Source: Marivirga arenosa
GTDB lineage: Bacteria; Bacteroidota; Bacteroidia; Cytophagales; Cyclobacteriaceae
DNA: 64,000 nucleotides
Direction of reading: 5' to 3'
Assembly: GCF_030503875.2 (NCBI RefSeq)
Contig: NZ_CP129968.2
Location: forward strand, 2,568,001-2,632,000
Below are positions 1 to 17,825 of the stretch, in pieces (position 1 is the first letter of the stretch; the number at the start of each line of letters is the position of its first letter). The notes beneath the pieces were generated by a model, which was not told the origin of the DNA, did no database searches, and saw only the letters and a list, made by a program, of their open reading frames with translations. The translations under genes were made by a program, and so were the position numbers.

Positions 1-1457
1 TCTTCCATTTCTACTATTCTATAATGATGCACTTTGCCCTTTTCTCCTTTGATCTTCTCTACAAAATCATAGGCCTGCAACTCTACCATATACCGCTTCT
101 GATTGCTAGGATTTATTCTGGTTGCTTTCCGTACTTCCTGATTGGTAAATTCTTCTTTCCCCTCCTTCTTTAACCATGATTTCAACCATTCCAGATAATT
201 TCGACTTGCCTCATTCAAGGGATCGGATTTCCTGATCAATACTTCCTTCATCAGCTTATTGGCTTCTTCTATATCTTCAAGAGTTGTATTGATGTAAACC
301 TCTCCTGTTTCCCTATCGGTTTCTTCCTCTCTTTGGTATTGATGGTAAAAAGTCACCGCTTCGATGAAGGCTAAATAATGCGCATTCGTTCTTCTGGGCT
401 TAAACACGATAGCTGGTAGCTGCAACTGCTCTGCATAAGGGTTTCTGATGCTTACAGGCTTTAACACACGTTGTGTATTTTTTAAGAGCTCTTGTAATTG
501 ATGGGCTGCTGCTATATCTACTTTACCTGCTGATAACTTCCGCTGATAGGCCATAATTTTTTCATCCTGCCCCCTGCTTTCATCTATGTAAATCATAAAC
601 GATCGATTCGCATTATCTTCATACAGACTTTCTTTAGTGGTACAGCCTGCTACACAAACAGGGCCTTCTACTGTTAAGGTCACTGTTCTGGTCTCTCCTT
701 TTGTGTTTTTAACTACTACCGTTTTGGTGATCCGCTTTTTGCTCTTGATTTCTCTTAGAGGATAAAGTACTTCTTCCGCACCGTCCAGGTCTTCTATGAG
801 TATGAGTTTGTTTCTTAGTTCCTGCTGACCAAAATAGTAAAAGGCATTGCCGCTCAGGCTGGTGATTTCCAGCTTATCCTCTTCGGGGATTAAAGCTGCT
901 ACTTTCTCTTGCAAATGGGTTTTACCTATGCCAGAACTGCCCAAGCTAATCACATGCAGCGGATTATCTCTTTTTCGGCTCGTAAAGATCAAATACATCA
1001 ATAGCCTGTTGTTTTCTTCTCCTATCACTCCTGCCTTGCCTATATCCTCTTTTGTGCGTTCTATCAAGTTAGGAGCTTTTAAATATTGTAAGGCTTCCTT
1101 TCGCTCTGTGGTAGTGAGTTGCTTGCGCTTATCTTGTGTTTGGACTTTTAATTCTATTTCTTTTAGTCTGTAGGCTTCCAGCTCGTCTGTGAGTTCTGTT
1201 AATGCCGCTGCTGCTACACTCGTTCCTATTTCTAACCTTTCTGCTATTTTCCTGATCAGCTTTTCTGTTTGGGTATCATTGTATAAATCAAGGTTGTGGC
1301 GCAAGCTTAAGTGTTCCACTTGGATTTTCAGGGTTGCCCTCATCCTGTCCAAGCCTTCCATTCTAATACCTCCTAAAATAGCGATTTCTAATGCTCCCTG
1401 AGTAAAGGTGAGATGTTCGGGGTTGGAAGTATCTAAAGGTTCTGTGGTAGCTTTCAT
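1..1457 (-). CDS. AAA+ P-loop ATPase of the mobile unit (copy 1, C-terminus cut off)
   Basis: Identical to the complete copy in unit 2, described there in full. The last 22 residues lie left of the window. The start is set at the MKATTEP methionine, because the longer open frame runs through the operator-like palindromes upstream. Confidence 0.85.
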   Translation of the reverse strand, partial: MKATTEPLDTSNPEHLTFTQGALEIAILGGIRMEGLDRMRATLKIQVEHLSLRHNLDLYNDTQTEKLIRKIAERLEIGTSVAAAALTELTDELEAYRLKEIELKVQTQDKRKQLTTTERKEALQYLKAPNLIERTKEDIGKAGVIGEENNRLLMYLIFTSRKRDNPLHVISLGSSGIGKTHLQEKVAALIPEEDKLEITSLSGNAFYYFGQQELRNKLILIEDLDGAEEVLYPLREIKSKKRITKTVVVKNTKGETRTVTLTVEGPVCVAGCTTKESLYEDNANRSFMIYIDESRGQDEKIMAYQRKLSAGKVDIAAAHQLQELLKNTQRVLKPVSIRNPYAEQLQLPAIVFKPRRTNAHYLAFIEAVTFYHQYQREEETDRETGEVYINTTLEDIEEANKLMKEVLIRKSDPLNEASRNYLEWLKSWLKKEGKEEFTNQEVRKATRINPSNQKRYMVELQAYDFVEKIKGEKGKVHHYRIVEME

Positions 1458-1478
1458 TTTTCTAAAAATAATTTTTAC

Positions 1479-1589
1479 TGATATATTTATCATAAATCTA
1501 TAAGATATATCAGAACAAAGCAAGACTTATATGATTTGATTATGATATTTATATCACCTACTTTTACCTAAAGCATCATATTTATATCA
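1479..1589. promoter_or_regulatory. Divergent control region with three TGATAT-type palindromes (copy 1)
   Basis: The gap between the divergent ATPase and XRE genes holds three 14-bp near-palindromes: TGATATATTTATCA (1479-1492), TGATATTTATATCA (1543-1556) and TCATATTTATATCA (1576-1589). All are built on the half-site TGATAT with a 2-bp centre. The rightmost ends 16 bp before the XRE start codon. They are likely operators for the XRE protein, controlling itself and the ATPase; the binding is inferred. Confidence 0.6.
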
Positions 1590-1605
1590 TTTTACTTACT
1601 TATCT

Positions 1606-1938
1606 ATGACTTTAGGCAACCATATCGCCACTTTACGCAAGAATAAAAAAATATCACAGCAAGAGCTGGGCAAGCTTGCTGGCACCTCTGGCGATCTCAT
1701 TGGGCGCTATGAAAGAGATGAGGTAAAACCCTCTATTGATGTGGTCATTAAGATAGCTGATGCATTAAATGTATCACTCGACTTCCTTGTAGGTAAAACT
1801 GATCTTGAGCTCGATACTGATGCACTAAAAAGGCTGGAACTGATTTCTAAACTCCCGCAGGAAGAAAAAAAACAACTACTACACGTTATCGATGCACTTC
1901 TAAGAGATTTTAACGCTAAAAAAGCTTATGCTTTATGA
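1606..1938 (+). CDS. XRE-family HTH repressor (copy 1)
   Basis: A 110-residue Cro/cI-type regulator, identical in all three units. The helix-turn-helix spans about residues 5-60: LRKNKKISQQELGKLAG, then SGDLIGRYERDEVKPS, then a conserved hydrophobic helix ending DFLVGK. The remainder is a charged helix that could dimerise. It is transcribed away from the ATPase across a region with three palindromes, which is the usual layout of a mobile-element immunity repressor. Its stop codon overlaps the start of the 86-aa gene (ATGA), so the two are probably co-translated. Confidence 0.9.
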   Translation: MTLGNHIATLRKNKKISQQELGKLAGTSGDLIGRYERDEVKPSIDVVIKIADALNVSLDFLVGKTDLELDTDALKRLELISKLPQEEKKQLLHVIDALLRDFNAKKAYAL

Positions 1939-2195
1939 GGACTAAAATTGAAGAGTTCAATGGCACTCATGTTTCTATTCGTTTTTTCCCAGATTCAGAA
2001 CATGAACAAAAAGCTTTATCTGCTTTCAAAAATAATCGTGCTAATGACAGCATAGAACTCAATGTTATAGGAAGGGTGGAAAAAGCGATTCTTTCTCAAG
2101 GTCTGGGACAGTACTCAGTTACAGGATTCAATGGAGTTCAAAACAATATCTACTATATCTTTCAAGTGCAAAGAATTGGGGGCTTAGGACATTAA
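1935..2195 (+). CDS. Uncharacterised 86-aa protein coupled to the XRE repressor (copy 1)
   Basis: I do not recognise the family. It starts inside the repressor stop codon (ATGA overlap) and is followed at once by a strong hairpin terminator, so the two form a closed two-gene operon. The protein is small and soluble, without signal peptide or membrane segment. The pattern is alternating beta strands with a charged middle (HVSIRFFP, IELNVIGRVEK, YYIFQVQRI). A partner or anti-repressor of the XRE protein is possible, but nothing in the sequence shows it. Confidence 0.75.
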   Translation: MRTKIEEFNGTHVSIRFFPDSEHEQKALSAFKNNRANDSIELNVIGRVEKAILSQGLGQYSVTGFNGVQNNIYYIFQVQRIGGLGH

Positions 2196-2196
2196 A

Positions 2197-2228
2197 AAAC
2201 CCCAAGCTTTAAGAGAAGCTTGGGGTTT
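2197..2228. terminator. Hairpin terminator after XRE/86-aa operon (copy 1)
   Basis: A perfect 13-bp stem, AAACCCCAAGCTT / AAGCTTGGGGTTT, with a 6-nt loop, begins one base after the 86-aa stop. A-rich and T-rich flanks would let it serve both strands, separating this operon from the convergent RHS-tip/immunity genes. Confidence 0.85.
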
Positions 2229-2257
2229 GGTTATATCTTAATGTATGTATTTATTAA

Positions 2258-2332
2258 TTACCACCATGTAAAACATGGCGGGAACGGGGGACCCAATGGT
2301 AAATATAGGTTTACAACAAGACTTCTTAGCAT
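2258..2332 (-). CDS. Possible 24-aa peptide downstream of the immunity candidate (copy 1)
   Basis: A short frame starts 1 nt after the immunity-candidate stop codon. It encodes 24 residues ending PLGPPFPPCFTWW, rich in Pro and Trp with a single Cys. It ends before the terminator. Only its position and unusual composition support it; it may be chance, since the DNA here also contains the inverted repeat CCATGTAAAACATGG. Confidence 0.2.
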   Translation of the reverse strand: MLRSLVVNLYLPLGPPFPPCFTWW

Positions 2333-2333
2333 T

Positions 2334-2675
2334 TTAATCTTGATCAATAGTTCGATAACCATTCTCCCATTCTTTGGAGTCTGAGTAGTAGATCAATGAT
2401 TCACCTAATGAAGTCCCAAACCAAACAGTATAGTAAACACTATCTCGTTTTTCATAGAATAGTTCTTCAGAATCAATATTACTTAAATCAACTTCATTTA
2501 GAGTATTAGGTAGTTTTCCATGCAATGCCGAATATTCCTCTATCTTTTCAACTAGCAAATTACCATTTCTTTTTAACCTGTTCTCGTCAAAATCACGTAG
2601 AAAAACGAAATAGACTAGTAAAATAATTGATATTACCAATCCAATAAGAATTGTTGCTTTTTTCATATTAGTCAT
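2334..2675 (-). CDS. Small membrane-anchored protein, candidate immunity to the RHS tip (copy 1)
   Basis: A protein of 113 residues (110 if started at the second Met). It has one hydrophobic segment near residues 5-25 (ATILIGLVISIILLVYFVF), followed by a soluble domain with ALHGKLPNTLNEV and IYYSDSKEW. Its start overlaps the RHS stop (ATGA), so it is translationally coupled to the RHS tip. That is where immunity genes of polymorphic RHS toxins normally sit. The soluble part also loosely resembles pseudopilin-type proteins. The immunity role is inferred from position only. Confidence 0.75.
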   Translation of the reverse strand: MTNMKKATILIGLVISIILLVYFVFLRDFDENRLKRNGNLLVEKIEEYSALHGKLPNTLNEVDLSNIDSEELFYEKRDSVYYTVWFGTSLGESLIYYSDSKEWENGYRTIDQD

Positions 2676-3652
2676 TCTTTTGTATCCTCTTTCTTCTCTT
2701 CTTCTGTTGTGTGTTTCGGATCAGAAGACATATTTGTCTCGGTTGGTGGTGTAGATGTGTCATCCGCATCTGGCAAATTGTCGTAGTTTGGTGCATTTTC
2801 TGGATCAGTCGCTCCCAAGACATCAACTAAGAAATTCTGTAACTGCTCAGCAAATGACAGATCGCTTTCAGGGTCAAAGAAATCTGCTCCAAATTGTGCA
2901 CCAAATTTATCACTAGGTAAATCCTCATAACTAAAAGCTGAATGCTCCGCATTAATCATATCACCTAACTCTTGCAACAGTCCATCTTGTAATGCTTTAC
3001 CAACAGGGTGTTCTTCTCCATTTTGCTTATAGCCATAACTTCTACCAGCATAAAACATGAAGTGCGCCATGTCGACCCAACCACCTTTTTTGGTATAGAT
3101 ATATCGGTTACCACCTGAAGTATTAAAGGGAGCAGTATTCGCTGGCTTAGGACCTTTAAAGGTCATCTTAGTTTTACCCATTCTTAGCATTCCAGCATTT
3201 GCATCACTGCCTCTTGTTTTTCCCAAACCTGTTGATAAATTATTCATGAAGGAAACAAACCCCTGAACCGTACCAGCTAAAGGTTTAATAGGTTCATTTC
3301 CATCAGGGTCAATATTTCCAATAGGGTTATTCAGGACATAATTATATGGACTATATGCAGAATATTTCTCACTTAGGTTATCAACTCCATTCCATCTCCC
3401 TAAATCAGGCTGATACATTCTTGCCCCATAGTCAATCCACCCTGTTTCTTCCTGCTCCTCCTTGCCGTTGTACTTGTAATTATTCGCCTTTGAGTAGCTC
3501 CTCTGATAGGAGTTAAAGGTTAGACCAAAAGGATAGTAATTATAGCGATTTTTTAGCGCACACTCTTTTTTCTTTAGGCTCTCCCCTAAAAAAACAGCGG
3601 TTTTGCCCATGCTTTCCCCTGCCTGTCGGTATGATAATTTTAAACAGCCCAT
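2672..3652 (-). CDS. Orphan RHS C-terminal tip with MGCLKL leader (unit 1 tip, unit 2 leader)
   Basis: 326 residues. Residues 1-38 are a leader beginning MGCLKLSYRQ and ending NRYN, encoded by the start of unit 2. Residues 39-326 run from YYPFG onward and are identical to the last 288 residues of the full-length RHS protein. The tip holds the end of the RHS core (GWIDYGARMYQPDLGRW, then NNPIGNIDPDGN), a unique domain (WVDMAHFMFYAG, then SAFSYEDLPSD) and an acidic tail. There is no signal peptide, so if translated it should stay in the cytoplasm. It could be a reserve tip, or a by-product of site-specific insertion. Translation is uncertain, but start codon and frame are intact. Confidence 0.75.
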   Translation of the reverse strand: MGCLKLSYRQAGESMGKTAVFLGESLKKKECALKNRYNYYPFGLTFNSYQRSYSKANNYKYNGKEEQEETGWIDYGARMYQPDLGRWNGVDNLSEKYSAYSPYNYVLNNPIGNIDPDGNEPIKPLAGTVQGFVSFMNNLSTGLGKTRGSDANAGMLRMGKTKMTFKGPKPANTAPFNTSGGNRYIYTKKGGWVDMAHFMFYAGRSYGYKQNGEEHPVGKALQDGLLQELGDMINAEHSAFSYEDLPSDKFGAQFGADFFDPESDLSFAEQLQNFLVDVLGATDPENAPNYDNLPDADDTSTPPTETNMSSDPKHTTEEEKKEDTKE

Positions 3653-3746
3653 TTAAGCTTTCAAGATAATAATATTTTTTTTCGCCCTCGCCTGTTTTTT
3701 AAGTTTTCATTCGTATAAGTAGTAAATAACTTAATTTTAAAAACAT

Positions 3747-3965
3747 ATGATTATGGCACACAATTTCGATTACAATAAAATTATGGAGACTTACAACAAT
3801 GCTGCAAGCCCTGTTGCTGCTAATGGGGCATTTGATTTAGTAAGAACATCATTAAAAGACGGTCACGAGGTTCAGATTAATTTTGGAGAAGGACAACAGT
3901 CTAAAAGGTTTACAAAGATTGAAGACTTTAATAAATGGGTTGCCGACATTAAGGAGAGGATTTAA
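3747..3965 (+). CDS. Uncharacterised 72-aa protein (unit 2)
   Basis: An unrecognised small soluble protein, 72 residues (70 if started at the second Met, MAHNFDYN). The sequence suggests an alpha/beta fold with a basic C-terminal half (SLKDGHEVQINFGEG, then FTKIEDFNKWVADIKERI). It is the only gene between the RHS leader and the structured block, is transcribed toward the block, and is followed 27 nt later by a long hairpin. It is duplicated intact in unit 3. A DNA-binding accessory or anti-toxin role is possible but unsupported. Confidence 0.65.
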   Translation: MIMAHNFDYNKIMETYNNAASPVAANGAFDLVRTSLKDGHEVQINFGEGQQSKRFTKIEDFNKWVADIKERI

Positions 3966-3992
3966 ATAGTTTGTTGGCAATATAAACTAACG

Positions 3993-4056
3993 TTTTTTTG
4001 AAGGATAAAAGCTTTGGGCGTGCGTGGGATTGTGTGGCATTTATTCTTCAAAAAAA
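3993..4056. terminator. 17-bp-stem hairpin with a 30-nt GC-rich loop (unit 2)
   Basis: TTTTTTTGAAGGATAAA (3993-4009) pairs with TTTATTCTTCAAAAAAA (4040-4056), with a single G-T wobble. The loop is G-rich (GGGCGTGCGTGGGATTGTG). It could terminate the 72-aa gene. The loop is too long and rich for a simple terminator, so it may instead be part of a structured DNA or RNA site together with the block that follows. Confidence 0.6.
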
Positions 4057-4778
4057 TGATCCAAGCGAACTGCTGCACCCCATTAAATGTAAAAAATCTG
4101 GCAGAGCGCGGTAAGTATCCTGATCACTAAAACGACCACAACAATTTGCTGGAACCACTTCACTTTCCCGACCTGCACTGTCTGCTCTGCGGGCCCCTGC
4201 GGGCGCCACCACCAGCCTGCCAAGGGGGAACGTAGCAAAGCGGAGAGGCTTGGCAGTGCGGACAGCCTTTGGATTGTGCGTCTGGTTTGCGGGGGCTGTA
4301 CGGGACTGGTGGTGGCACGCAGGCCCGCACTAACTCGGGCTGTGGTTTTGTTTTTTTGCCTTTGCCCCGCAGGGATCAAACACATCAAAAAAACAAAAAG
4401 GAACAGACGTGGCGAGGAGCGGATGGCAAGCAAGGGGAGGAAAATGCAAATAGGGTTTGTGCGGCTGCTAAATATGCGCTGTACTCTGATACCGATTTAC
4501 CTGCTTATGCTTTTTTGCTAAGCGGGTGATCCATTAACAACAATCAGTGTGCAGCGCATGTTTTAAGGCGTGAAGATTTGCATTTTTCCGCACTGCAGCC
4601 TTGCCAACGCACCACAGGCACACCGCTTCACCAAGTATTTTTCCGACCCCTCGATGGGGAAGAAAAAATAAACTGCTCACTCTCGTATCGCACCACTCTC
4701 GGCATGGTTCCGCCCGTGCGGAACCAACTACTGCCCTACTGCTTTTTGGTGGAGTTGATATAAAGATTTTACTGGGGG
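4057..4778. other. GC-rich non-coding block with nested inverted repeats (unit 2)
   Basis: About 720 bp without a convincing gene and visibly richer in GC than its surroundings. Nested arms lie around one axis: CCCGA 4167 / TCGGG 4335; GCGGGCC 4189 / GGCCCGC 4322; GCCACCACCAG 4205 / CTGGTGGTGGC 4306. Inside them is CTGCCAAG 4217 / CTTGGCAG 4249. Further right is a perfect hairpin GGTTCCGC-CCGT-GCGGAACC (4706-4725), and CCCC-TCGAT-GGGG at 4647. Short overlapping frames in all directions look like shadows of this composition. It may be a structured RNA, a recombination or replication site, or a nested repeat element. Confidence 0.7.
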
Positions 4779-5099
4779 TTATCTCTTTTTCTGGATGTTT
4801 GAGGGATCTCTGCTTGTATGAAAAATATCAAGGATCAAGATTGCTTTACTGGTAATCTCGTAAATTATTTTATAGCTCCATATTACTTTATAACGATAAT
4901 TACCAGGTTCACCCTTTAAATTAGGCTCTTCTTCAAATTTCTCAGGAAAGTCGCTCAAAGACTTGGATTGTGCTACTATTTCGTTTCTGACTTTCTTGGC
5001 TACCTCAATGGATTCTCTTTTCTTAATATAGTTGTAAATACTTCTTAATGATCTTTTTGCTTCATCATCCCAGATAATACCTAACCTTTTCTTTACCAT
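4779..5099 (-). CDS. RelE/ParE-family toxin (unit 2)
   Basis: 106 residues, matching the family in length and pattern. An N-terminal strand and helix (IIWDDEAKRSLRSIYNYI) is followed by the basic core NYRYKVIWSYKIIYEI and the C-terminal strand ILDIFHTSRDP. RelE members cleave ribosome-bound mRNA while ParE members poison gyrase; the sequence does not decide which, and the HTSRDP ending is common in ParE-like proteins. Its start overlaps the antitoxin stop by 7 nt, the usual antitoxin-first order. In this element it would act as an addiction module that penalises loss of the array. Confidence 0.88.
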   Translation of the reverse strand: MVKKRLGIIWDDEAKRSLRSIYNYIKKRESIEVAKKVRNEIVAQSKSLSDFPEKFEEEPNLKGEPGNYRYKVIWSYKIIYEITSKAILILDIFHTSRDPSNIQKKR

Positions 5100-5347
5100 T
5101 CCTGCATCTCTTTTTCAAGATCATCCTGAGTAGTATATTGACCTTTCGCTATTCTTGCTTTAGCATCCCTGACCCTTGTCTTTAATTGATTTGCCGTCAT
5201 AGGTTTGCCCGATAAAGTATAATCATCTTGCGTATATTCTTTAGCTACAGCATAAAGCATTTTTATAAGCCTAGCATCTCCTTCTTCTATAAAATGGTAG
5301 AGTTCTTCTTTGATCTTAGGTGCTCCCATAATTGATGTTATTTCCAT
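5093..5347 (-). CDS. Antitoxin partner of the ParE-like toxin (unit 2)
   Basis: 84 residues (78 from the second Met), directly upstream of and overlapping the toxin. The N-terminal half is helical (IKEELYHFIEEGDARLIKMLYAVAKEY). The C-terminal half is charged (KTRVRDAKARIAKGQYTTQDDLEKEM), typical of the toxin-wrapping segments of short antitoxins in Bacteroidota. It follows recombinase B after 30 nt on the same strand, so it may be read from the integrase transcript. Confidence 0.85.
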   Translation of the reverse strand: MEITSIMGAPKIKEELYHFIEEGDARLIKMLYAVAKEYTQDDYTLSGKPMTANQLKTRVRDAKARIAKGQYTTQDDLEKEMQEW

Positions 5348-5377
5348 ACAAATTAACGATTTATTTTTGCAATTAAT

Positions 5378-6307
5378 TCATCCCATCGGATGGAACTGCT
5401 GGATTTCTTCTTTTAAGCTTTCTACATCGTTTCTTAAATAGCTTTCTGTACTGCTGATATAGCGATGGCCTGCTAGGTATTGAACTTCTCTTAGATTATG
5501 GCCTCTTAGCCACTTAGTAATCACACTCGATCTGATCTGCTCAGCATTTTTTACTCTACTATTTATCTGTTTTACCTTTAGCATTAACTGCGTCATAAAA
5601 TTGCTAAAACTATAGCAGTTACCTGCTTCTCCAATAAATAGTCTATTGGTTACCTGTGGCTTTTGGCTTTTTCTTTTAGGTTTCATCTGCAACAGCTCAG
5701 CTCGAACATGTAATATATAGTCGTATAAATCCATGACCTGATAGCTTTCTAACTGCAGCAATCTGCCGTTATATTTTTTACCTCCCAGTACATCGAGGTT
5801 TCCTTCTCTTAATTTAATATGGCTCACTTCTAATCTGGCTAACTCTGTTGTTCTTAAGCCTTGGTAAATCAGCATGCCTAGCATCACTTTATTACGCTTA
5901 TCCTGATGGCTTTCAGCAGGATATTGATTATACAGGCTGTGGAGATCCTCACTACTTAATATGGGGTAAAGCGTTTTCCTTTTAATGCCTTTTACAGCTA
6001 TATCTGTTACTGGATCTTTACTGATCAACTCTTCCTCTAGTAAATAATTATAGAAGTGCTTAATAGTGCCTATATAACTTTGTATTGTTCTTTGGCTTAC
6101 TTCCCTGCTATTGCACCATTTCATAAAACTTAATAAGTCTGTATAGCTTACTTCTGTCACTGACAGATTCTCTATAGCTAGCCAGTCAAAGTAGACCGAT
6201 ACTATCCTTAATCTACTCTTGATACTTGCTTTACTGGCTTGTTTTACTTTCAGATACTTTATAAAACCTTCTTTCAGCTGTACTTGGTTTATTAACTCAT
6301 CTTTCAT
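5378..6307 (-). CDS. Tyrosine recombinase B with a divergent active site (unit 2)
   Basis: I set the start at MKDELINQ, giving 309 residues and an 11-nt overlap with recombinase A; a longer frame reaches 6391. The N-terminal core-binding domain covers about residues 10-115. The catalytic domain shows Arg152 (YQGLRTTELARL), the hairpin Lys region (GGKKYNGRLLQL), Arg259 (EQIRSSVI), His281 (AGHRYISS) and nucleophile Tyr290 (TESYLRND). The usual HxxR histidine is Glu256 here. It is transcribed with recombinase A in an overlapping pair, a layout also seen in Tn554-like elements, so the two may work as a heteromer. Confidence 0.9.
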   Translation of the reverse strand: MKDELINQVQLKEGFIKYLKVKQASKASIKSRLRIVSVYFDWLAIENLSVTEVSYTDLLSFMKWCNSREVSQRTIQSYIGTIKHFYNYLLEEELISKDPVTDIAVKGIKRKTLYPILSSEDLHSLYNQYPAESHQDKRNKVMLGMLIYQGLRTTELARLEVSHIKLREGNLDVLGGKKYNGRLLQLESYQVMDLYDYILHVRAELLQMKPKRKSQKPQVTNRLFIGEAGNCYSFSNFMTQLMLKVKQINSRVKNAEQIRSSVITKWLRGHNLREVQYLAGHRYISSTESYLRNDVESLKEEIQQFHPMG

Positions 6308-7313
6308 CTTCTGATAGCTGGATATATTCATAGACGGGTATATTTTTATAGACTGTTTGTTGCTCACTGGGCTTATGCTGAAGGTGCGCATAGATTTGCG
6401 TACTTTCTAAGCTGCTATGACCTAAAAACCTGCTAATGCTTTCCAGTTTCATACCTGCTGTTAATAGGTGGGTAGCTATGCTATGCCTGAGCGTATGTAA
6501 TCCTATCTCCTTTTCTATTAAGTCCAAGTCTCCTGTTTGGTATTGCAACTTCTTTAGTCTAAGCAGAAGGCTTTGGCCTTGCATGCCTTTTCCTGAGCTG
6601 TAACTAATAAAAAGCTTACCTATCTTGCTGCCTCTGCTTAAAGCTGTTCTATGATCATAGACATAACTAATTAAATGGTGTAGATTCCTTTTACTGATTG
6701 GTACTAACCTTTCTTTATAGTTCTTCCCTCCTTTCACATGCAATATGCTGCTATCAAAATTGATATCTTCTACTTCCAGCTGTACGCCTTCATTTCTTCT
6801 TAGACCACAACCATAGTAAATAGCTAGCATGGCTCTGTCTCTTGACTGTATTGCTTCATATAGTTGATCTGAGGCATTCGGCTTTCTATCAGGTAACTGA
6901 TAGCTTGCCTTAAAAAGAAGCCTAATTTCTTCCACTGTCAGATAGTCTAGCTTCCTGACCGCTTCTTCATCTTTTAACCTGATTGCAGGGATTTCCAGCC
7001 TGCCTACCTTTCTCAAGTATTCAGTAAACTTTCGTAATGCCTGTATATGCTTGTTCAGGTGGCCATTACTTAGCCCACCGCCCCGCCTGTTGTTAGCTCG
7101 TTCCTTTAGCTTTTGGTAATAGCCTTCAATGTGCTTTGTTTTTAGCTCTCTGATGTTTTTGATTTCCTGCTGCTCAAGATAGTGGAGCAGTTCACGAACG
7201 TGTAAGGGAAGGTTGTACACAGTAGTAATACTATAGCCCTGCACGGCAAGCCATTCTTTGAAGCTTTCTTCCAGATAGCGATATGAGGCATTGGATAGGT
7301 TTAACTTTTTCAT
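6297..7313 (-). CDS. Tyrosine recombinase A, complete active site (unit 2)
   Basis: 338 residues, XerC/D-like. An N-terminal SAM-like core-binding domain occupies about residues 10-105 and the catalytic domain about 120-315. All catalytic residues are visible: Arg172 (YGCGLRRNEGVQL), the hairpin Lys (VKGGKNYKERLVP), His273 and Arg276 (LHTLRHSIATHLL), His299 (FLGHSSLESTQ) and Tyr308 (IYAH). It is first of the pair, with recombinase B starting inside its last codons. It is the best candidate for the enzyme that cuts the YYPFG codons of rhs; that target is inferred from the unit boundary. Confidence 0.95.
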   Translation of the reverse strand: MKKLNLSNASYRYLEESFKEWLAVQGYSITTVYNLPLHVRELLHYLEQQEIKNIRELKTKHIEGYYQKLKERANNRRGGGLSNGHLNKHIQALRKFTEYLRKVGRLEIPAIRLKDEEAVRKLDYLTVEEIRLLFKASYQLPDRKPNASDQLYEAIQSRDRAMLAIYYGCGLRRNEGVQLEVEDINFDSSILHVKGGKNYKERLVPISKRNLHHLISYVYDHRTALSRGSKIGKLFISYSSGKGMQGQSLLLRLKKLQYQTGDLDLIEKEIGLHTLRHSIATHLLTAGMKLESISRFLGHSSLESTQIYAHLQHKPSEQQTVYKNIPVYEYIQLSEDER

Positions 7314-7679
7314 CTATATTTATTCTAACTTTATCACTCCAATGACTACTTTTTGGCACTTATTATCAGGCAAGTATTGCAGGTTCTCAGGTAATCGCCT
7401 AACAGGCTCTGTTTTTCACTTCGGTTGGTGTTTCCAGAACTTTTGAACTTTGCTTATAAACTCTTGACAGGCTGCAGCTTTACTGGTTCATTGAGTAAGT
7501 GAACCACCCTTGAACCACCTATGAACATCCCCCTTTATTTTACTACTTCTTCCTTTAGTACTATTTATACTACGATTGAATAAAGCTTAATGAACCTAAT
7601 CAGATATATACTATATTAAGCTGTTTCACGGTGCTCTGTCTATAACATGCACCGAGTACTCCCCTTTGGGGAATGATTC
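7314..7679. other. Non-coding leader of the recombinase operon (unit 2)
   Basis: There is no gene here. It holds an inverted repeat GGTTCA/TGAACC (7485-7505) that runs into the direct repeats TGAACCACC (7500, 7511), possible protein-binding sites. Just after the ATPase stop lie two hairpins: CGGTGC/GCACCG (7629-7654) and CCCC-TTT-GGGG (7661-7671). They could terminate ATPase transcription. The promoter for the recombinases is probably here, but I cannot place it. Confidence 0.5.
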
Positions 7680-9203
7680 TTACTCTTTTAATACTTTTAG
7701 CAACTGATCTAATACACCTCCCACATTTTGCTTTAAGCTTTCATATTCTTCCATTTCTACTATTCTATAATGATGCACTTTGCCCTTTTCTCCTTTGATC
7801 TTCTCTACAAAATCATAGGCCTGCAACTCTACCATATACCGCTTCTGATTGCTAGGATTTATTCTGGTTGCTTTCCGTACTTCCTGATTGGTAAATTCTT
7901 CTTTCCCCTCCTTCTTTAACCATGATTTCAACCATTCCAGATAATTTCGACTTGCCTCATTCAAGGGATCGGATTTCCTGATCAATACTTCCTTCATCAG
8001 CTTATTGGCTTCTTCTATATCTTCAAGAGTTGTATTGATGTAAACCTCTCCTGTTTCCCTATCGGTTTCTTCCTCTCTTTGGTATTGATGGTAAAAAGTC
8101 ACCGCTTCGATGAAGGCTAAATAATGCGCATTCGTTCTTCTGGGCTTAAACACGATAGCTGGTAGCTGCAACTGCTCTGCATAAGGGTTTCTGATGCTTA
8201 CAGGCTTTAACACACGTTGTGTATTTTTTAAGAGCTCTTGTAATTGATGGGCTGCTGCTATATCTACTTTACCTGCTGATAACTTCCGCTGATAGGCCAT
8301 AATTTTTTCATCCTGCCCCCTGCTTTCATCTATGTAAATCATAAACGATCGATTCGCATTATCTTCATACAGACTTTCTTTAGTGGTACAGCCTGCTACA
8401 CAAACAGGGCCTTCTACTGTTAAGGTCACTGTTCTGGTCTCTCCTTTTGTGTTTTTAACTACTACCGTTTTGGTGATCCGCTTTTTGCTCTTGATTTCTC
8501 TTAGAGGATAAAGTACTTCTTCCGCACCGTCCAGGTCTTCTATGAGTATGAGTTTGTTTCTTAGTTCCTGCTGACCAAAATAGTAAAAGGCATTGCCGCT
8601 CAGGCTGGTGATTTCCAGCTTATCCTCTTCGGGGATTAAAGCTGCTACTTTCTCTTGCAAATGGGTTTTACCTATGCCAGAACTGCCCAAGCTAATCACA
8701 TGCAGCGGATTATCTCTTTTTCGGCTCGTAAAGATCAAATACATCAATAGCCTGTTGTTTTCTTCTCCTATCACTCCTGCCTTGCCTATATCCTCTTTTG
8801 TGCGTTCTATCAAGTTAGGAGCTTTTAAATATTGTAAGGCTTCCTTTCGCTCTGTGGTAGTGAGTTGCTTGCGCTTATCTTGTGTTTGGACTTTTAATTC
8901 TATTTCTTTTAGTCTGTAGGCTTCCAGCTCGTCTGTGAGTTCTGTTAATGCCGCTGCTGCTACACTCGTTCCTATTTCTAACCTTTCTGCTATTTTCCTG
9001 ATCAGCTTTTCTGTTTGGGTATCATTGTATAAATCAAGGTTGTGGCGCAAGCTTAAGTGTTCCACTTGGATTTTCAGGGTTGCCCTCATCCTGTCCAAGC
9101 CTTCCATTCTAATACCTCCTAAAATAGCGATTTCTAATGCTCCCTGAGTAAAGGTGAGATGTTCGGGGTTGGAAGTATCTAAAGGTTCTGTGGTAGCTTT
9201 CAT
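7680..9203 (-). CDS. AAA+ P-loop ATPase, primase-helicase-like (unit 2)
   Basis: 507 residues from MKATTEP; the open frame extends 22 codons further but through operator-like palindromes. Walker A is GSSGIGKT at about 173-180 and Walker B is LILIEDLDG at about 218-226. Next come a sensor-like segment (VCVAGCTTKESLY, followed by NRSFMIYIDES) and a C-terminal winged-helix-like part (FTNQEVRKATRINPSNQKRYM). The ATPase core resembles the helicase half of CHC2/Toprim primase proteins on Bacteroidota mobile elements, but no zinc-finger or Toprim domain is present. It probably remodels DNA for element replication or excision. It is divergent from the XRE gene and likely repressed by it. Confidence 0.85.
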   Translation of the reverse strand: MKATTEPLDTSNPEHLTFTQGALEIAILGGIRMEGLDRMRATLKIQVEHLSLRHNLDLYNDTQTEKLIRKIAERLEIGTSVAAAALTELTDELEAYRLKEIELKVQTQDKRKQLTTTERKEALQYLKAPNLIERTKEDIGKAGVIGEENNRLLMYLIFTSRKRDNPLHVISLGSSGIGKTHLQEKVAALIPEEDKLEITSLSGNAFYYFGQQELRNKLILIEDLDGAEEVLYPLREIKSKKRITKTVVVKNTKGETRTVTLTVEGPVCVAGCTTKESLYEDNANRSFMIYIDESRGQDEKIMAYQRKLSAGKVDIAAAHQLQELLKNTQRVLKPVSIRNPYAEQLQLPAIVFKPRRTNAHYLAFIEAVTFYHQYQREEETDRETGEVYINTTLEDIEEANKLMKEVLIRKSDPLNEASRNYLEWLKSWLKKEGKEEFTNQEVRKATRINPSNQKRYMVELQAYDFVEKIKGEKGKVHHYRIVEMEEYESLKQNVGGVLDQLLKVLKE

Positions 9204-9224
9204 TTTTCTAAAAATAATTTTTAC

Positions 9225-9335
9225 TGATATATTTATCATAAATCTATAAGATATATCAGAACAAAGCAAGACTTATATGATTTGATTATGATATTTATAT
9301 CACCTACTTTTACCTAAAGCATCATATTTATATCA
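9225..9335. promoter_or_regulatory. Divergent control region with three TGATAT-type palindromes (unit 2)
   Basis: Same three near-palindromes as in copy 1, at 9225-9238, 9289-9302 and 9322-9335, between the ATPase and XRE start codons. Confidence 0.6.
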
Positions 9336-9351
9336 TTTTACTTACTTATCT

Positions 9352-9684
9352 ATGACTTTAGGCAACCATATCGCCACTTTACGCAAGAATAAAAAAATAT
9401 CACAGCAAGAGCTGGGCAAGCTTGCTGGCACCTCTGGCGATCTCATTGGGCGCTATGAAAGAGATGAGGTAAAACCCTCTATTGATGTGGTCATTAAGAT
9501 AGCTGATGCATTAAATGTATCACTCGACTTCCTTGTAGGTAAAACTGATCTTGAGCTCGATACTGATGCACTAAAAAGGCTGGAACTGATTTCTAAACTC
9601 CCGCAGGAAGAAAAAAAACAACTACTACACGTTATCGATGCACTTCTAAGAGATTTTAACGCTAAAAAAGCTTATGCTTTATGA
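9352..9684 (+). CDS. XRE-family HTH repressor (unit 2)
   Basis: Identical to the unit 1 copy. With three identical repressor genes, dosage of the repressor rises with copy number of the array, which would tend to keep all units silent together (inference). Confidence 0.9.
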   Translation: MTLGNHIATLRKNKKISQQELGKLAGTSGDLIGRYERDEVKPSIDVVIKIADALNVSLDFLVGKTDLELDTDALKRLELISKLPQEEKKQLLHVIDALLRDFNAKKAYAL

Positions 9685-9941
9685 GGACTAAAATTGAAGA
9701 GTTCAATGGCACTCATGTTTCTATTCGTTTTTTCCCAGATTCAGAACATGAACAAAAAGCTTTATCTGCTTTCAAAAATAATCGTGCTAATGACAGCATA
9801 GAACTCAATGTTATAGGAAGGGTGGAAAAAGCGATTCTTTCTCAAGGTCTGGGACAGTACTCAGTTACAGGATTCAATGGAGTTCAAAACAATATCTACT
9901 ATATCTTTCAAGTGCAAAGAATTGGGGGCTTAGGACATTAA
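9681..9941 (+). CDS. Uncharacterised 86-aa protein coupled to the XRE repressor (unit 2)
   Basis: Identical to the unit 1 copy, including the ATGA overlap with the repressor gene. Confidence 0.75.
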   Translation: MRTKIEEFNGTHVSIRFFPDSEHEQKALSAFKNNRANDSIELNVIGRVEKAILSQGLGQYSVTGFNGVQNNIYYIFQVQRIGGLGH

Positions 9942-9942
9942 A

Positions 9943-9974
9943 AAACCCCAAGCTTTAAGAGAAGCTTGGGGTTT
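9943..9974. terminator. Hairpin terminator after XRE/86-aa operon (unit 2)
   Basis: Same perfect 13-bp stem as in unit 1. Confidence 0.85.
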
Positions 9975-10003
9975 GGTTATATCTTAATGTATGTATTTAT
10001 TAA

Positions 10004-10078
10004 TTACCACCATGTAAAACATGGCGGGAACGGGGGACCCAATGGTAAATATAGGTTTACAACAAGACTTCTTAGCAT
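10004..10078 (-). CDS. Possible 24-aa peptide (unit 2)
   Basis: Identical to the unit 1 frame, starting 1 nt after the immunity-candidate stop. Weak support. Confidence 0.2.
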   Translation of the reverse strand: MLRSLVVNLYLPLGPPFPPCFTWW

Positions 10079-10079
10079 T

Positions 10080-10421
10080 TTAATCTTGATCAATAGTTCG
10101 ATAACCATTCTCCCATTCTTTGGAGTCTGAGTAGTAGATCAATGATTCACCTAATGAAGTCCCAAACCAAACAGTATAGTAAACACTATCTCGTTTTTCA
10201 TAGAATAGTTCTTCAGAATCAATATTACTTAAATCAACTTCATTTAGAGTATTAGGTAGTTTTCCATGCAATGCCGAATATTCCTCTATCTTTTCAACTA
10301 GCAAATTACCATTTCTTTTTAACCTGTTCTCGTCAAAATCACGTAGAAAAACGAAATAGACTAGTAAAATAATTGATATTACCAATCCAATAAGAATTGT
10401 TGCTTTTTTCATATTAGTCAT
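10080..10421 (-). CDS. Candidate immunity membrane protein (unit 2)
   Basis: Identical to the unit 1 copy, with the same 4-nt overlap with the RHS tip. Its presence in every unit, including those with orphan tips, fits a tip plus immunity cassette that moves as one piece. Confidence 0.75.
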   Translation of the reverse strand: MTNMKKATILIGLVISIILLVYFVFLRDFDENRLKRNGNLLVEKIEEYSALHGKLPNTLNEVDLSNIDSEELFYEKRDSVYYTVWFGTSLGESLIYYSDSKEWENGYRTIDQD

Positions 10422-11398
10422 TCTTTTGTATCCTCTTTCTTCTCTTCTTCTGTTGTGTGTTTCGGATCAGAAGACATATTTGTCTCGGTTGGTGGTGTAG
10501 ATGTGTCATCCGCATCTGGCAAATTGTCGTAGTTTGGTGCATTTTCTGGATCAGTCGCTCCCAAGACATCAACTAAGAAATTCTGTAACTGCTCAGCAAA
10601 TGACAGATCGCTTTCAGGGTCAAAGAAATCTGCTCCAAATTGTGCACCAAATTTATCACTAGGTAAATCCTCATAACTAAAAGCTGAATGCTCCGCATTA
10701 ATCATATCACCTAACTCTTGCAACAGTCCATCTTGTAATGCTTTACCAACAGGGTGTTCTTCTCCATTTTGCTTATAGCCATAACTTCTACCAGCATAAA
10801 ACATGAAGTGCGCCATGTCGACCCAACCACCTTTTTTGGTATAGATATATCGGTTACCACCTGAAGTATTAAAGGGAGCAGTATTCGCTGGCTTAGGACC
10901 TTTAAAGGTCATCTTAGTTTTACCCATTCTTAGCATTCCAGCATTTGCATCACTGCCTCTTGTTTTTCCCAAACCTGTTGATAAATTATTCATGAAGGAA
11001 ACAAACCCCTGAACCGTACCAGCTAAAGGTTTAATAGGTTCATTTCCATCAGGGTCAATATTTCCAATAGGGTTATTCAGGACATAATTATATGGACTAT
11101 ATGCAGAATATTTCTCACTTAGGTTATCAACTCCATTCCATCTCCCTAAATCAGGCTGATACATTCTTGCCCCATAGTCAATCCACCCTGTTTCTTCCTG
11201 CTCCTCCTTGCCGTTGTACTTGTAATTATTCGCCTTTGAGTAGCTCCTCTGATAGGAGTTAAAGGTTAGACCAAAAGGATAGTAATTATAGCGATTTTTT
11301 AGCGCACACTCTTTTTTCTTTAGGCTCTCCCCTAAAAAAACAGCGGTTTTGCCCATGCTTTCCCCTGCCTGTCGGTATGATAATTTTAAACAGCCCAT
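10418..11398 (-). CDS. Orphan RHS C-terminal tip with MGCLKL leader (unit 2 tip, unit 3 leader)
   Basis: Identical to the orphan tip at 2672-3652. The leader codons (11287-11398) come from unit 3 and the tip codons from unit 2, with the frame preserved exactly across the junction. The preserved frame in both orphan copies suggests the leader is selected to supply a start for whatever tip ends up next to it. Confidence 0.75.
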   Translation of the reverse strand: MGCLKLSYRQAGESMGKTAVFLGESLKKKECALKNRYNYYPFGLTFNSYQRSYSKANNYKYNGKEEQEETGWIDYGARMYQPDLGRWNGVDNLSEKYSAYSPYNYVLNNPIGNIDPDGNEPIKPLAGTVQGFVSFMNNLSTGLGKTRGSDANAGMLRMGKTKMTFKGPKPANTAPFNTSGGNRYIYTKKGGWVDMAHFMFYAGRSYGYKQNGEEHPVGKALQDGLLQELGDMINAEHSAFSYEDLPSDKFGAQFGADFFDPESDLSFAEQLQNFLVDVLGATDPENAPNYDNLPDADDTSTPPTETNMSSDPKHTTEEEKKEDTKE

Positions 11399-11492
11399 TT
11401 AAGCTTTCAAGATAATAATATTTTTTTTCGCCCTCGCCTGTTTTTTAAGTTTTCATTCGTATAAGTAGTAAATAACTTAATTTTAAAAACAT

Positions 11493-11711
11493 ATGATTAT
11501 GGCACACAATTTCGATTACAATAAAATTATGGAGACTTACAACAATGCTGCAAGCCCTGTTGCTGCTAATGGGGCATTTGATTTAGTAAGAACATCATTA
11601 AAAGACGGTCACGAGGTTCAGATTAATTTTGGAGAAGGACAACAGTCTAAAAGGTTTACAAAGATTGAAGACTTTAATAAATGGGTTGCCGACATTAAGG
11701 AGAGGATTTAA
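11493..11711 (+). CDS. Uncharacterised 72-aa protein (unit 3)
   Basis: Identical to the unit 2 copy. Confidence 0.65.
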   Translation: MIMAHNFDYNKIMETYNNAASPVAANGAFDLVRTSLKDGHEVQINFGEGQQSKRFTKIEDFNKWVADIKERI

Positions 11712-11738
11712 ATAGTTTGTTGGCAATATAAACTAACG

Positions 11739-11802
11739 TTTTTTTGAAGGATAAAAGCTTTGGGCGTGCGTGGGATTGTGTGGCATTTATTCTTCAAAAA
11801 AA
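11739..11802. terminator. 17-bp-stem hairpin with long loop (unit 3)
   Basis: Same hairpin as in unit 2, downstream of the 72-aa gene. Confidence 0.6.
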
Positions 11803-12524
11803 TGATCCAAGCGAACTGCTGCACCCCATTAAATGTAAAAAATCTGGCAGAGCGCGGTAAGTATCCTGATCACTAAAACGACCACAACAATTTGCTGGAA
11901 CCACTTCACTTTCCCGACCTGCACTGTCTGCTCTGCGGGCCCCTGCGGGCGCCACCACCAGCCTGCCAAGGGGGAACGTAGCAAAGCGGAGAGGCTTGGC
12001 AGTGCGGACAGCCTTTGGATTGTGCGTCTGGTTTGCGGGGGCTGTACGGGACTGGTGGTGGCACGCAGGCCCGCACTAACTCGGGCTGTGGTTTTGTTTT
12101 TTTGCCTTTGCCCCGCAGGGATCAAACACATCAAAAAAACAAAAAGGAACAGACGTGGCGAGGAGCGGATGGCAAGCAAGGGGAGGAAAATGCAAATAGG
12201 GTTTGTGCGGCTGCTAAATATGCGCTGTACTCTGATACCGATTTACCTGCTTATGCTTTTTTGCTAAGCGGGTGATCCATTAACAACAATCAGTGTGCAG
12301 CGCATGTTTTAAGGCGTGAAGATTTGCATTTTTCCGCACTGCAGCCTTGCCAACGCACCACAGGCACACCGCTTCACCAAGTATTTTTCCGACCCCTCGA
12401 TGGGGAAGAAAAAATAAACTGCTCACTCTCGTATCGCACCACTCTCGGCATGGTTCCGCCCGTGCGGAACCAACTACTGCCCTACTGCTTTTTGGTGGAG
12501 TTGATATAAAGATTTTACTGGGGG
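11803..12524. other. GC-rich non-coding block with nested inverted repeats (unit 3)
   Basis: Same block as in unit 2, with all arms conserved: 11-bp arms at 11951-11961 and 12052-12062, and the perfect 8-bp hairpin at 12452-12471. No convincing gene. Confidence 0.7.
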
Positions 12525-12845
12525 TTATCTCTTTTTCTGGATGTTTGAGGGATCTCTGCTTGTATGAAAAATATCAAGGATCAAGATTGCTTTACTGGTA
12601 ATCTCGTAAATTATTTTATAGCTCCATATTACTTTATAACGATAATTACCAGGTTCACCCTTTAAATTAGGCTCTTCTTCAAATTTCTCAGGAAAGTCGC
12701 TCAAAGACTTGGATTGTGCTACTATTTCGTTTCTGACTTTCTTGGCTACCTCAATGGATTCTCTTTTCTTAATATAGTTGTAAATACTTCTTAATGATCT
12801 TTTTGCTTCATCATCCCAGATAATACCTAACCTTTTCTTTACCAT
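12525..12845 (-). CDS. RelE/ParE-family toxin (unit 3)
   Basis: Identical to the unit 2 copy. Confidence 0.88.
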   Translation of the reverse strand: MVKKRLGIIWDDEAKRSLRSIYNYIKKRESIEVAKKVRNEIVAQSKSLSDFPEKFEEEPNLKGEPGNYRYKVIWSYKIIYEITSKAILILDIFHTSRDPSNIQKKR

Positions 12846-13093
12846 TCCTGCATCTCTTTTTCAAGATCATCCTGAGTAGTATATTGACCTTTCGCTATTC
12901 TTGCTTTAGCATCCCTGACCCTTGTCTTTAATTGATTTGCCGTCATAGGTTTGCCCGATAAAGTATAATCATCTTGCGTATATTCTTTAGCTACAGCATA
13001 AAGCATTTTTATAAGCCTAGCATCTCCTTCTTCTATAAAATGGTAGAGTTCTTCTTTGATCTTAGGTGCTCCCATAATTGATGTTATTTCCAT
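12839..13093 (-). CDS. Antitoxin partner of the ParE-like toxin (unit 3)
   Basis: Identical to the unit 2 copy; overlaps the toxin start by 7 nt. Confidence 0.85.
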   Translation of the reverse strand: MEITSIMGAPKIKEELYHFIEEGDARLIKMLYAVAKEYTQDDYTLSGKPMTANQLKTRVRDAKARIAKGQYTTQDDLEKEMQEW

Positions 13094-13123
13094 ACAAATT
13101 AACGATTTATTTTTGCAATTAAT

Positions 13124-14053
13124 TCATCCCATCGGATGGAACTGCTGGATTTCTTCTTTTAAGCTTTCTACATCGTTTCTTAAATAGCTTTCTGTACTGC
13201 TGATATAGCGATGGCCTGCTAGGTATTGAACTTCTCTTAGATTATGGCCTCTTAGCCACTTAGTAATCACACTCGATCTGATCTGCTCAGCATTTTTTAC
13301 TCTACTATTTATCTGTTTTACCTTTAGCATTAACTGCGTCATAAAATTGCTAAAACTATAGCAGTTACCTGCTTCTCCAATAAATAGTCTATTGGTTACC
13401 TGTGGCTTTTGGCTTTTTCTTTTAGGTTTCATCTGCAACAGCTCAGCTCGAACATGTAATATATAGTCGTATAAATCCATGACCTGATAGCTTTCTAACT
13501 GCAGCAATCTGCCGTTATATTTTTTACCTCCCAGTACATCGAGGTTTCCTTCTCTTAATTTAATATGGCTCACTTCTAATCTGGCTAACTCTGTTGTTCT
13601 TAAGCCTTGGTAAATCAGCATGCCTAGCATCACTTTATTACGCTTATCCTGATGGCTTTCAGCAGGATATTGATTATACAGGCTGTGGAGATCCTCACTA
13701 CTTAATATGGGGTAAAGCGTTTTCCTTTTAATGCCTTTTACAGCTATATCTGTTACTGGATCTTTACTGATCAACTCTTCCTCTAGTAAATAATTATAGA
13801 AGTGCTTAATAGTGCCTATATAACTTTGTATTGTTCTTTGGCTTACTTCCCTGCTATTGCACCATTTCATAAAACTTAATAAGTCTGTATAGCTTACTTC
13901 TGTCACTGACAGATTCTCTATAGCTAGCCAGTCAAAGTAGACCGATACTATCCTTAATCTACTCTTGATACTTGCTTTACTGGCTTGTTTTACTTTCAGA
14001 TACTTTATAAAACCTTCTTTCAGCTGTACTTGGTTTATTAACTCATCTTTCAT
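13124..14053 (-). CDS. Tyrosine recombinase B with a divergent active site (unit 3)
   Basis: Identical to the unit 2 copy, with the same His-to-Glu change in the HxxR box; a longer frame reaches 14137. Confidence 0.9.
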   Translation of the reverse strand: MKDELINQVQLKEGFIKYLKVKQASKASIKSRLRIVSVYFDWLAIENLSVTEVSYTDLLSFMKWCNSREVSQRTIQSYIGTIKHFYNYLLEEELISKDPVTDIAVKGIKRKTLYPILSSEDLHSLYNQYPAESHQDKRNKVMLGMLIYQGLRTTELARLEVSHIKLREGNLDVLGGKKYNGRLLQLESYQVMDLYDYILHVRAELLQMKPKRKSQKPQVTNRLFIGEAGNCYSFSNFMTQLMLKVKQINSRVKNAEQIRSSVITKWLRGHNLREVQYLAGHRYISSTESYLRNDVESLKEEIQQFHPMG

Positions 14054-15059: not shown

Positions 15060-15425
15060 CTATATTTATTCTAACTTTATCACTCCAATGACTACTTTTT
15101 GGCACTTATTATCAGGCAAGTATTGCAGGTTCTCAGGTAATCGCCTAACAGGCTCTGTTTTTCACTTCGGTTGGTGTTTCCAGAACTTTTGAACTTTGCT
15201 TATAAACTCTTGACAGGCTGCAGCTTTACTGGTTCATTGAGTAAGTGAACCACCCTTGAACCACCTATGAACATCCCCCTTTATTTTACTACTTCTTCCT
15301 TTAGTACTATTTATACTACGATTGAATAAAGCTTAATGAACCTAATCAGATATATACTATATTAAGCTGTTTCACGGTGCTCTGTCTATAACATGCACCG
15401 AGTACTCCCCTTTGGGGAATGATTC
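15060..15425. other. Non-coding leader of the recombinase operon (unit 3)
   Basis: Same as the unit 2 region: GGTTCA/TGAACC inverted repeat, TGAACCACC direct repeats, and two hairpins after the ATPase stop. Confidence 0.5.
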
Positions 15426-16949: not shown

Positions 16950-16970
16950 TTTTCTAAAAATAATTTTTAC

Positions 16971-17081: not shown

Positions 17082-17097
17082 TTTTACTTACTTATCT

Positions 17098-17687: not shown

Positions 17688-17688
17688 A

Positions 17689-17720: not shown

Positions 17721-17749
17721 GGTTATATCTTAATGTATGTATTTATTAA

Positions 17750-17824: not shown

Positions 17825-17825
17825 T

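Follow-up and report, generated by a model that had tools for sequence, protein, structure and literature searches.

How does an rhs gene come by a new C-terminal tip, and what becomes of the old one? Jackson et al. 2009 (PMC2935791) described tips that are displaced by homologous recombination and proposed a circular intermediate; the sections of that article that bear on the question knew of no integrase that co-occurs with Rhs. Here we analyze a locus of Marivirga arenosa in which one rhs gene holds an array of repeated units, each with a pair of tyrosine recombinases. "The window" is the whole stretch of 64,000 nucleotides (contig NZ_CP129968.2 of assembly GCF_030503875.2, positions 2,568,001 to 2,632,000; G000:C1:2568001-2632000), and stretch L007 is the genome sequence to its left. 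We are confident that the unit is an integrative element that inserts site-specifically, with a fixed codon of rhs as its target and a new toxin tip plus a presumed immunity gene as its cargo. The locus looks like integrase-driven tip displacement, as opposed to the published homologous recombination. An earlier examination of the window without database searches (the sequence-only reading) had proposed exchange of this kind within the YYPFG codons of rhs. As a whole its interpretation is supported, and the evidence from the array and from its far left end is stronger than it had claimed.

Positions 1-11286 of the window are a copy of the sequence 7,746 bases further on, with zero mismatches, and the repeat extends leftward out of the window into L007, mismatch-free to its left end at L007:6048. 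The junctions (about L007:6048, about L007:13795, and window positions 3540, 11286, and 19032) are spaced by 7,746 bases, plus or minus one base in L007 coordinates, and therefore the array in the assembly consists of four identical 7,746-bp units, of which the window covers part. The features that matter here, with the basis for each, are:

1..3529, minus strand: right part of an element unit, the second from the left in the genome (left part in L007); identity at offset 7746, boundary between CCT and TTT from other arrays
3530..11275, minus strand: complete element unit, 7746 bp; offset identity, boundary from other arrays
11276..19021, minus strand: complete element unit, 7746 bp, tip fused to host rhs; offset identity, host open reading frame (ORF), boundary from other arrays
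3530..3652, minus strand: leader MGCLKL...NRYN-YYP with the A-tract motif of the element side; sequence, ORF list, and A-tract consensus
11276..11398, minus strand: leader, second copy within the window; offset identity
3525..3540, minus strand: unit-unit junction with 16-bp core ATTACTATCCTTTTGG; junction comparison
19017..19032, minus strand: junction of element and host rhs, same 16-bp core; junction comparison
2672..3529, minus strand: end of the RHS core plus variable tip, within the 326-aa leader-tip ORF 2672-3652; TIGR03696
2334..2675, minus strand: presumed immunity gene, 113 aa, 4-base overlap with the tip, no family match; position
10080..11275, minus strand: tip and presumed immunity gene, second copy; offset identity
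18164..19021, minus strand: element tip in frame with host rhs; host ORF
19022..26620, minus strand: host rhs up to the exchange point (Ig_7, DUF6443, RHS_repeat); domain matches

The unit-unit junctions at 3531 and 11277 read GGATAGTAATTATAGCG and the host junction at 19023 reads GGATAGTAATCATCCGC. On the minus strand these are CGCTATA followed by ATTACTATCC and GCGGATG followed by ATTACTATCC, just as the sequence-only reading had given them. The part before the switch is the leader (...CGCTATAATTACTATCCTTTTGG) at the inner junctions and host rhs (...GCGGATGATTACTATCCTTTTGG) at the right junction, and all five junctions of the array carry the 16-bp core. The element has a shared core at both ends, as an integrative element should, and similar junctions are found in other genomes. 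The same reading held that the element's tip is fused to the host gene. Indeed, the host ORF 18164-26620 (2,818 aa, with Ig_7 repeats, DUF6443, an RHS repeat, and the Rhs core) reads through the junction in frame, and its final 285 residues are the element-encoded tip. At the inner copy, the ORF 2672-3652 (326 aa) consists of the leader and an RHS core (TIGR03696, E = 1.5e-18), and the gene 2334-2675 overlaps it by 4 bases. The genome (4.0 Mb) has five TIGR03696 matches, all within this array.

If insertion displaces a tip, then the far left end of the array should carry the leader fused to a different RHS tip with its own small gene; this had been predicted, and a left end without an RHS tip had been named beforehand as the outcome that would speak against the idea. 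The left end does have an RHS tip. At L007:5103-6161, an identical leader (MGCLKL...NRYN) is followed in frame by YYPFG and a different RHS tip (TIGR03696, E = 6.9e-19), and the downstream gene (L007:4324-5106) overlaps this ORF by 4 bases. The locus has the parts of a displacement locus: a full-length rhs (18164-26620), a displaced tip (L007:5103-6161), and a partner gene (4324-5106). The displaced tip contains a string that resembles the motif of HNH nucleases; it has no Pfam match. Further left, L007:1570-4157 appears to be debris of an older element, with recombinase, ParE-like, and Rhs pieces. The Rhs piece matches the host gene at 69% over 42 residues, and a transposase gene in the debris has a sub-cut-off match to IS3.

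Many integrating elements restore the 3' end of their target with a repair patch. Might rhs be only a landing site, and the element's tip such a patch? The own and displaced tips are 82% identical over the first 100 bases past the exchange, as a patch would be. Beyond the core, however, the two tips differ and each has its own downstream gene, and both are rare: when 340 other genomes of the order were searched, the own tip came up again weakly in 2 and the displaced tip in 1. Because the tips differ and are rare, insertion changes what rhs encodes, and we consider the repair patch improbable.

Where within the core does the exchange fall? We compared 103 junctions (4,218 pairs), numbering bases from the start of the first Tyr codon (base 1), and recorded the position of the outermost mismatch; 13 pairs passed the filters, with side-identity limits of 0.93 versus 0.6 for pairs with the same tip or 0.8 for pairs with the same leader. 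Nine pairs share a tip and differ upstream, and the eight in other genomes all last differ at base 9: these are from the metagenome-assembled genome NP5 (L017, L018, L026), Salegentibacter (L035/L055), Subsaximicrobium (L049), and Flavivirga (L067). Three of the eight repeat the same junctions (L017 with L018, L017 with L026, and the overlapping L035 and L055), which leaves five distinct cases. The own-array pair gives -2. Among the four pairs that share a leader, three (L017/L018, L017/L026, and L042) first differ at base 10; the other, L027, gives 0 and is another site type, its leader apparently reaching as far as a different Rhs motif. In our own array, the leader copies have their first difference at base 15, which, like the -2 of the own-array tips, is compatible with exchange between bases 9 and 10. 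Because same-tip pairs stop at 9 and same-leader pairs start at 10, the exchange, as judged from five plus three distinct cases, falls between these bases, that is, between YYP and [FG]G.

The own array alone places the exchange only within the 16-bp core, and the other arrays place it between 3530 and 3529 (between CCT and TTT), 11 bases inside the mark of the sequence-only reading. That reading was right about the YYPFG motif, and its choice of the TAC-TAT-CC codons has to be shifted to just after YYP. Unit boundaries in related genomes lie in RHS cores, and at the same codons in the informative pairs, which agrees with it as well; boundaries at unrelated sequences would have spoken against it. 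An initial grouping of the cores into matching FG and GG classes was abandoned, as one leader joins both types (L017/L018, L017/L026, L042). A likelihood change-point estimate from 10 pairs was replaced because it tolerates single mismatches, so that its positions scatter (-2, -1, 6, and 10 for same-tip pairs and 15 for one same-leader pair, L032/L048).

Uninterrupted target sites are found in the genus. A query of 523 residues of host rhs up to the junction matched in 6 of 10 genus genomes, our own included. In G005, an rhs frame of 2,433 residues lies between relatives of the two genes that flank our locus; it has YYPFG followed by another tip, and G005 has no match to the profile of the element's ATPase-like protein. 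G002, G004, and G008 likewise keep the codons uninterrupted and have other tips, although the G004 frame (L148) is 609 residues and not a full-length gene. These four uninterrupted targets (L147, L148, L150, L151) do not include a joining of the flanks of our own gene. G059, listed as a genome of our own species, gave no match to this rhs query. G004, G005, and G008 contain short RHS frames whose similarity to host rhs spans 184 to 311 residues and ends at the junction. At the element-free loci L147, L148, and L151, the short RHS frames keep long host-type sequence before YYPFG. Judged by their sequence, such frames are the expected mark of homologous recombination, in contrast to tips that start with the leader.

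Homologous recombination between conserved RHS cores, with the recombinase genes as passengers, would account for the short frames of G004, G005, and G008, which run through YYPFG into other tips, and it is the published proposal for tip displacement in the relevant sections of Jackson et al. 2009 (PMC2935791). In the element arrays, however, the upstream side is the leader and not host rhs. Furthermore, core stretches of variable length, which mark displacement loci, are absent: the informative pairs switch at one fixed base, and the upstream sides of the eight same-tip pairs are just 16 to 44% identical. Finally, nearly all of the counted units lie between two cores (50/51 upstream and 46/47 downstream), most of them with the recombinase pair. 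We consider it very improbable that homologous recombination moves these tips.

These counts come from relatives that were sought by the ATPase-like gene and not by RHS, so the flanking cores provide an independent test. A scan of one genome per species gave 123 relatives, and the best 80 were kept, which yielded 75 loci; by title, these are from Cytophagales, Flavobacteriales, Sphingobacteriales, Bacteroidales, and others. Two assemblies with alphaproteobacterial titles account for four of the loci, probably through mis-binning. (The NP5 assembly is titled Rickettsiales yet carries a Bacteroidota element.) A typical unit with its flanks runs from Rhs core and tip through xre (opposite strand), the ATPase-like gene, RecA, RecB (as we call the two recombinases), and often an antitoxin and ParE to the leader and another Rhs core. 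We counted cores around 99 copies in 79 sequences (the 75 loci, our own, and three from relatives). An Rhs core lies within 5.5 kb upstream of 50 of the 51 copies with at least 4 kb upstream (49 of 50 distinct copies, as a Salegentibacter copy is counted twice) and downstream of 46 of the 47 copies with at least 3.5 kb beyond the recombinases. The left cores are within ORFs of at least 800 aa at 21 places. The counts leave out the duplicates L104, L105, and L106, the core-less L110, and the additional stretches L175-L187; the 9 kb of L110 contain no RHS core, and including it would make the downstream count 46/48.

At E = 1e-3, the ATPase-like protein has 5,741 relatives among 7,998 scored candidates, and the leader-core part has 3,258 among 3,291. 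Matches are found in 16 of 392 genomes of a phylum sample (our own and some short remnants included) and in 8 of 59 related genomes (our own included), and the element is in one of 8 same-genus genomes besides our own. Aureibacter tunicatorum has one pair on a plasmid. On contig G373:C7 (L163, L171, L173), three short N-terminal fragments of the ATPase-like protein lie in a row and are apparently decayed elements.

The leader has a protein side and a DNA side. Aligned in good register, 28 distinct right ends give the element-side consensus TAGAAAAAAAA, a spacer of about 11 bases, and AAAAAATNGCATAGATTACTATCC, that is, two A-tracts at near-constant spacing, while 18 host sides are without A-tracts (L027 is in both sets). 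The protein motif MG[CA]x[KR][LIVF] was found within 260 bases at 19 of 59 right ends, each time in a frame that is open through to the core. Of the 37 left ends that do not double as right ends, one has it, and this one (L013) is a leader junction; among 20,000 random positions, 139 have it. The sequence-only reading had claimed that the boundary supplies a new start codon with the frame preserved and that MGCLKL-type leaders are widespread. Both hold here, and 19 right ends have such a leader with paired recombinases beside it; elsewhere, many relatives lack an open leader or, as in Salegentibacter and Flavivirga, have stops between leader and core, so only some members of the family have the in-frame leader. 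In this array the displaced tip does have its start codon, but the DNA site is the more constant feature. Alternatively, the leader might be a working protein domain that is conserved for its function and not as DNA. This would explain why the frame is open at all 19 of those right ends and why 50 of 120 listed homologues carry a similar start. The core-proximal half, however, follows the A-rich DNA motif, which is present also where stops interrupt the frame, and we think a protein role possible but somewhat unlikely.

Could the four identical copies have arisen in assembly, or by amplification of one insertion in the laboratory? They are known from the assembly and not from reads, and they are identical, as an artefact would be. 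Tandem units are not peculiar to this genome, however: 19 of the 79 sequences hold at least two copies (L035 and L055 overlap), and in four other genomes (L175, L079, L035/L055, and L049), which are also assemblies, adjacent units share 99.93 to 99.99% identity. (In L182, neighboring units are not near-identical.) We consider both origins unlikely, and a single copy would in any case leave both outer junctions unchanged. In G390 (L176:6399-14198 and L177:2198-9483), neighboring units share 5,850 bp at 99.98% while their tips and partner genes differ. From these sequences, tips appear to be swapped between element backbones too. The border of the G390 mosaic is at CCCCAGCTCGCGCGAGC and adjoins what looks, by eye, like a truncated xre gene.

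The remaining genes of the unit are:

6297..7313, minus strand: RecA, tyrosine recombinase with a complete catalytic set (PF00589, 6.3e-32); copy at 14043-15059
5378..6391, minus strand: RecB, tyrosine recombinase with Glu aligned at the first catalytic His (PF00589, 1.3e-12); copy at 13124-14137
7680..9269, minus strand: ATPase-like protein (Walker-A-like string by eye; matches the C-terminal part of relatives' primase-like proteins); copy at 15426-17015 and cut copy at 3-1523
1606..1938, plus strand: Xre-type repressor (HTH_3; domain match)
1935..2195, plus strand: 86-aa ORF after xre, no NCBIfam match (ORF list)
4779..5347, minus strand: ParE-like toxin 4779-5099 (PF05016, 1.5e-14) and presumed antitoxin 5093-5347

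A G+C-rich spacer with no clear gene lies between ParE and the leader (4083-4760), and L007:1740-1960 is a similar-looking stretch. A 72-aa ORF with no NCBIfam match (3747-3965) adjoins the leader on the other strand.

RecA has the catalytic residues of a tyrosine recombinase: across 102 rows (the reference and tandem copies included), R is kept in 102, K in 94, H in 102, R in 102, H in 101, and Y in 101. RecB is different. Of 96 rows, 90 retain the Tyr but only 18 the first Arg and 11 the first His; the RecB of the window keeps the Arg and has Glu at the His position. The damaged partner and the one-base switch together suggest that only strand exchange by RecA might count, much as in integron cassettes and CTX phage, a hypothesis that is weaker for the window's own RecB. 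Neither recombinase scores as an integron integrase (TIGR02249: 91.1 and 36.2 bits, against a cut-off of 265), nor does the unit score as a gamma-mobile-trio island (GmtY, NF040693: RecA 23 bits, against a cut-off of 340; no match listed for RecB).

The ATPase-like protein (507-529 residues) was named by eye from a Walker-A-like string. It has no above-cut-off match in Pfam or NCBIfam, and a protein database lists PF27228 for it. In a longer relative (L108:8000-10798), the protein continues upstream into a CHC2 zinc finger and a Toprim domain, so by sequence the protein of the window corresponds to the C-terminal part of a primase-like protein. A sequence search of the PDB with the ATPase alignment gave no match. 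PADLOC gave none for the window's ATPase-like protein and recombinases; DRT models matched the longer relative in their primase-like parts, and common helix-turn-helix models matched the xre protein. Nor does the protein mark the unit as a phage or satellite: its matches in phage records are to 5 Sulfolobus virus records, weak and over about a third of the protein, and among viral contigs 0 of 39 pattern matches is a relative of it. No relaxase or conjugation gene was found among the unit proteins scanned with Pfam and NCBIfam, a scan in which not every ORF was run against both.

The mechanism that we propose starts from what can be read in the assemblies (the anatomy of the unit, its ends, the exchange position, the in-frame fusions, and the conservation elsewhere) and presumes recombinase activity, toxicity, and immunity. 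A circular form of the element would carry the leader-tip joint as its attachment site, and the recombinase pair would join this circle to rhs between the Pro and Phe/Gly codons of YYP[FG]G. On one side, host rhs would be joined to the element's tip to give a re-armed full-length toxin. On the other side, the leader would be joined to the old tip, which here would keep an in-frame start. The leader would probably also keep the displaced partner gene translated, because the presumed immunity gene overlaps the tip ORF by 4 bases, and the cell would stay immune to kin with the old tip. Repeated insertion or amplification would yield tandem units.

Several observations weigh against this account. 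There is no RHS core near L178/L179 (from one genome), L184, or L110, and L186 has a downstream core only; L178, L179, L184, and L186 are among the 13 additional stretches. The core counts have misses at L014 (left) and L025 (right). The exchange position differs in L079 and L187, where the switch is further downstream, and probably in L027. No toxin or immunity family in Pfam or NCBIfam matched the own tip, the displaced tip, or the partner genes, so the roles of toxin and immunity protein rest on position and RHS context. The one-backbone, two-tip units of G390 need a step that the model does not give. In NP5, one element (7,915 bp, 99.86%) has two right joints (L017 and L018), one of them to its own tip, which fits a circle and fits a tandem repeat equally. 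The circle and transfer between cells are postulated, and neither these nor an excision product was seen in assembled sequence.

Some of these exceptions hint at a broader target range. In L178:2112-15237 (G254), element copies lie in a region without an Rhs core, where a single tip is shared by two upstream sequences, and this suggests a family that extends beyond rhs. By eye, one of the upstream parts that lead into the shared tip resembles a signal peptide, and other toxin genes may be targets. A bolder version, which we offer tentatively and think doubtful, is that these are phylum-wide toxin re-arming elements that act on polymorphic toxin genes generally, with one-strand exchange by RecA alone, RecB in a structural role, and replication finishing the reaction. 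This would explain the one-base switch with unlike flanks, the loss of residues in RecB, and the accompanying primase-related ATPase.

Several known systems share parts of this design. In the shufflon (R64 pilV, Rci), a tyrosine recombinase inverts resident segments at a fixed site and so gives a surface protein another C terminus; here, in contrast, an element with its own recombinases and a partner gene is inserted. Elements of the CTnDOT/Tn916 type use a tyrosine recombinase and tolerate mismatched sequence at the crossover, whereas here the target is inside a toxin gene and no conjugation gene was recognized among the unit proteins scanned. Integron cassettes and CTX-type phage integrate by one-strand exchange, which leaves a sharp junction; the likeness is in this junction pattern only.

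Rhs C-terminal displacement, as outlined in parts of PMC2935791, has old tips pushed downstream, arrays of displaced tips, and a proposed circular intermediate, as here; what sets the present element apart is that its tip is accompanied by two recombinases and that the junctions change over at a single codon boundary. For bee gut bacteria, PMC5727410 reports Rhs-associated genes that resemble integrases and were suspected of helping to move the Rhs genes, with their role left open; those are other bacteria, and the portions of that article on these genes give no attachment site or element boundary. The relevant sections of the 2012 survey of polymorphic toxins (PMC3482391) describe recombination with toxin cassettes, in which toxin and immunity gene arrive together at the 3' end, as here, and XerC/D recombinases beside some polyimmunity loci; they treat recombination in general and name no element, site, or codon. 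Ornithobacterium hominis, also of the Bacteroidota, has arrays of displaced tips, and a tip and immunity gene in common with another genus (PMC6421346, PMC13183296); the corresponding passages attribute these to displacement and, unlike here, name no recombinase for it. We found no description of this element in the titles and abstract starts of the open-access literature that we searched.

For the acquisition of new tips, the sections of Jackson et al. 2009 (PMC2935791) that propose a circular intermediate left the enzyme open. The sequences of many genomes now show which enzyme pair is the candidate, which codon is the target, and what the displaced product looks like, which makes this step directly testable. 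If our account is correct, then a single mobile-element event would change which neighbors a cell attacks while keeping its immunity to its old kin.
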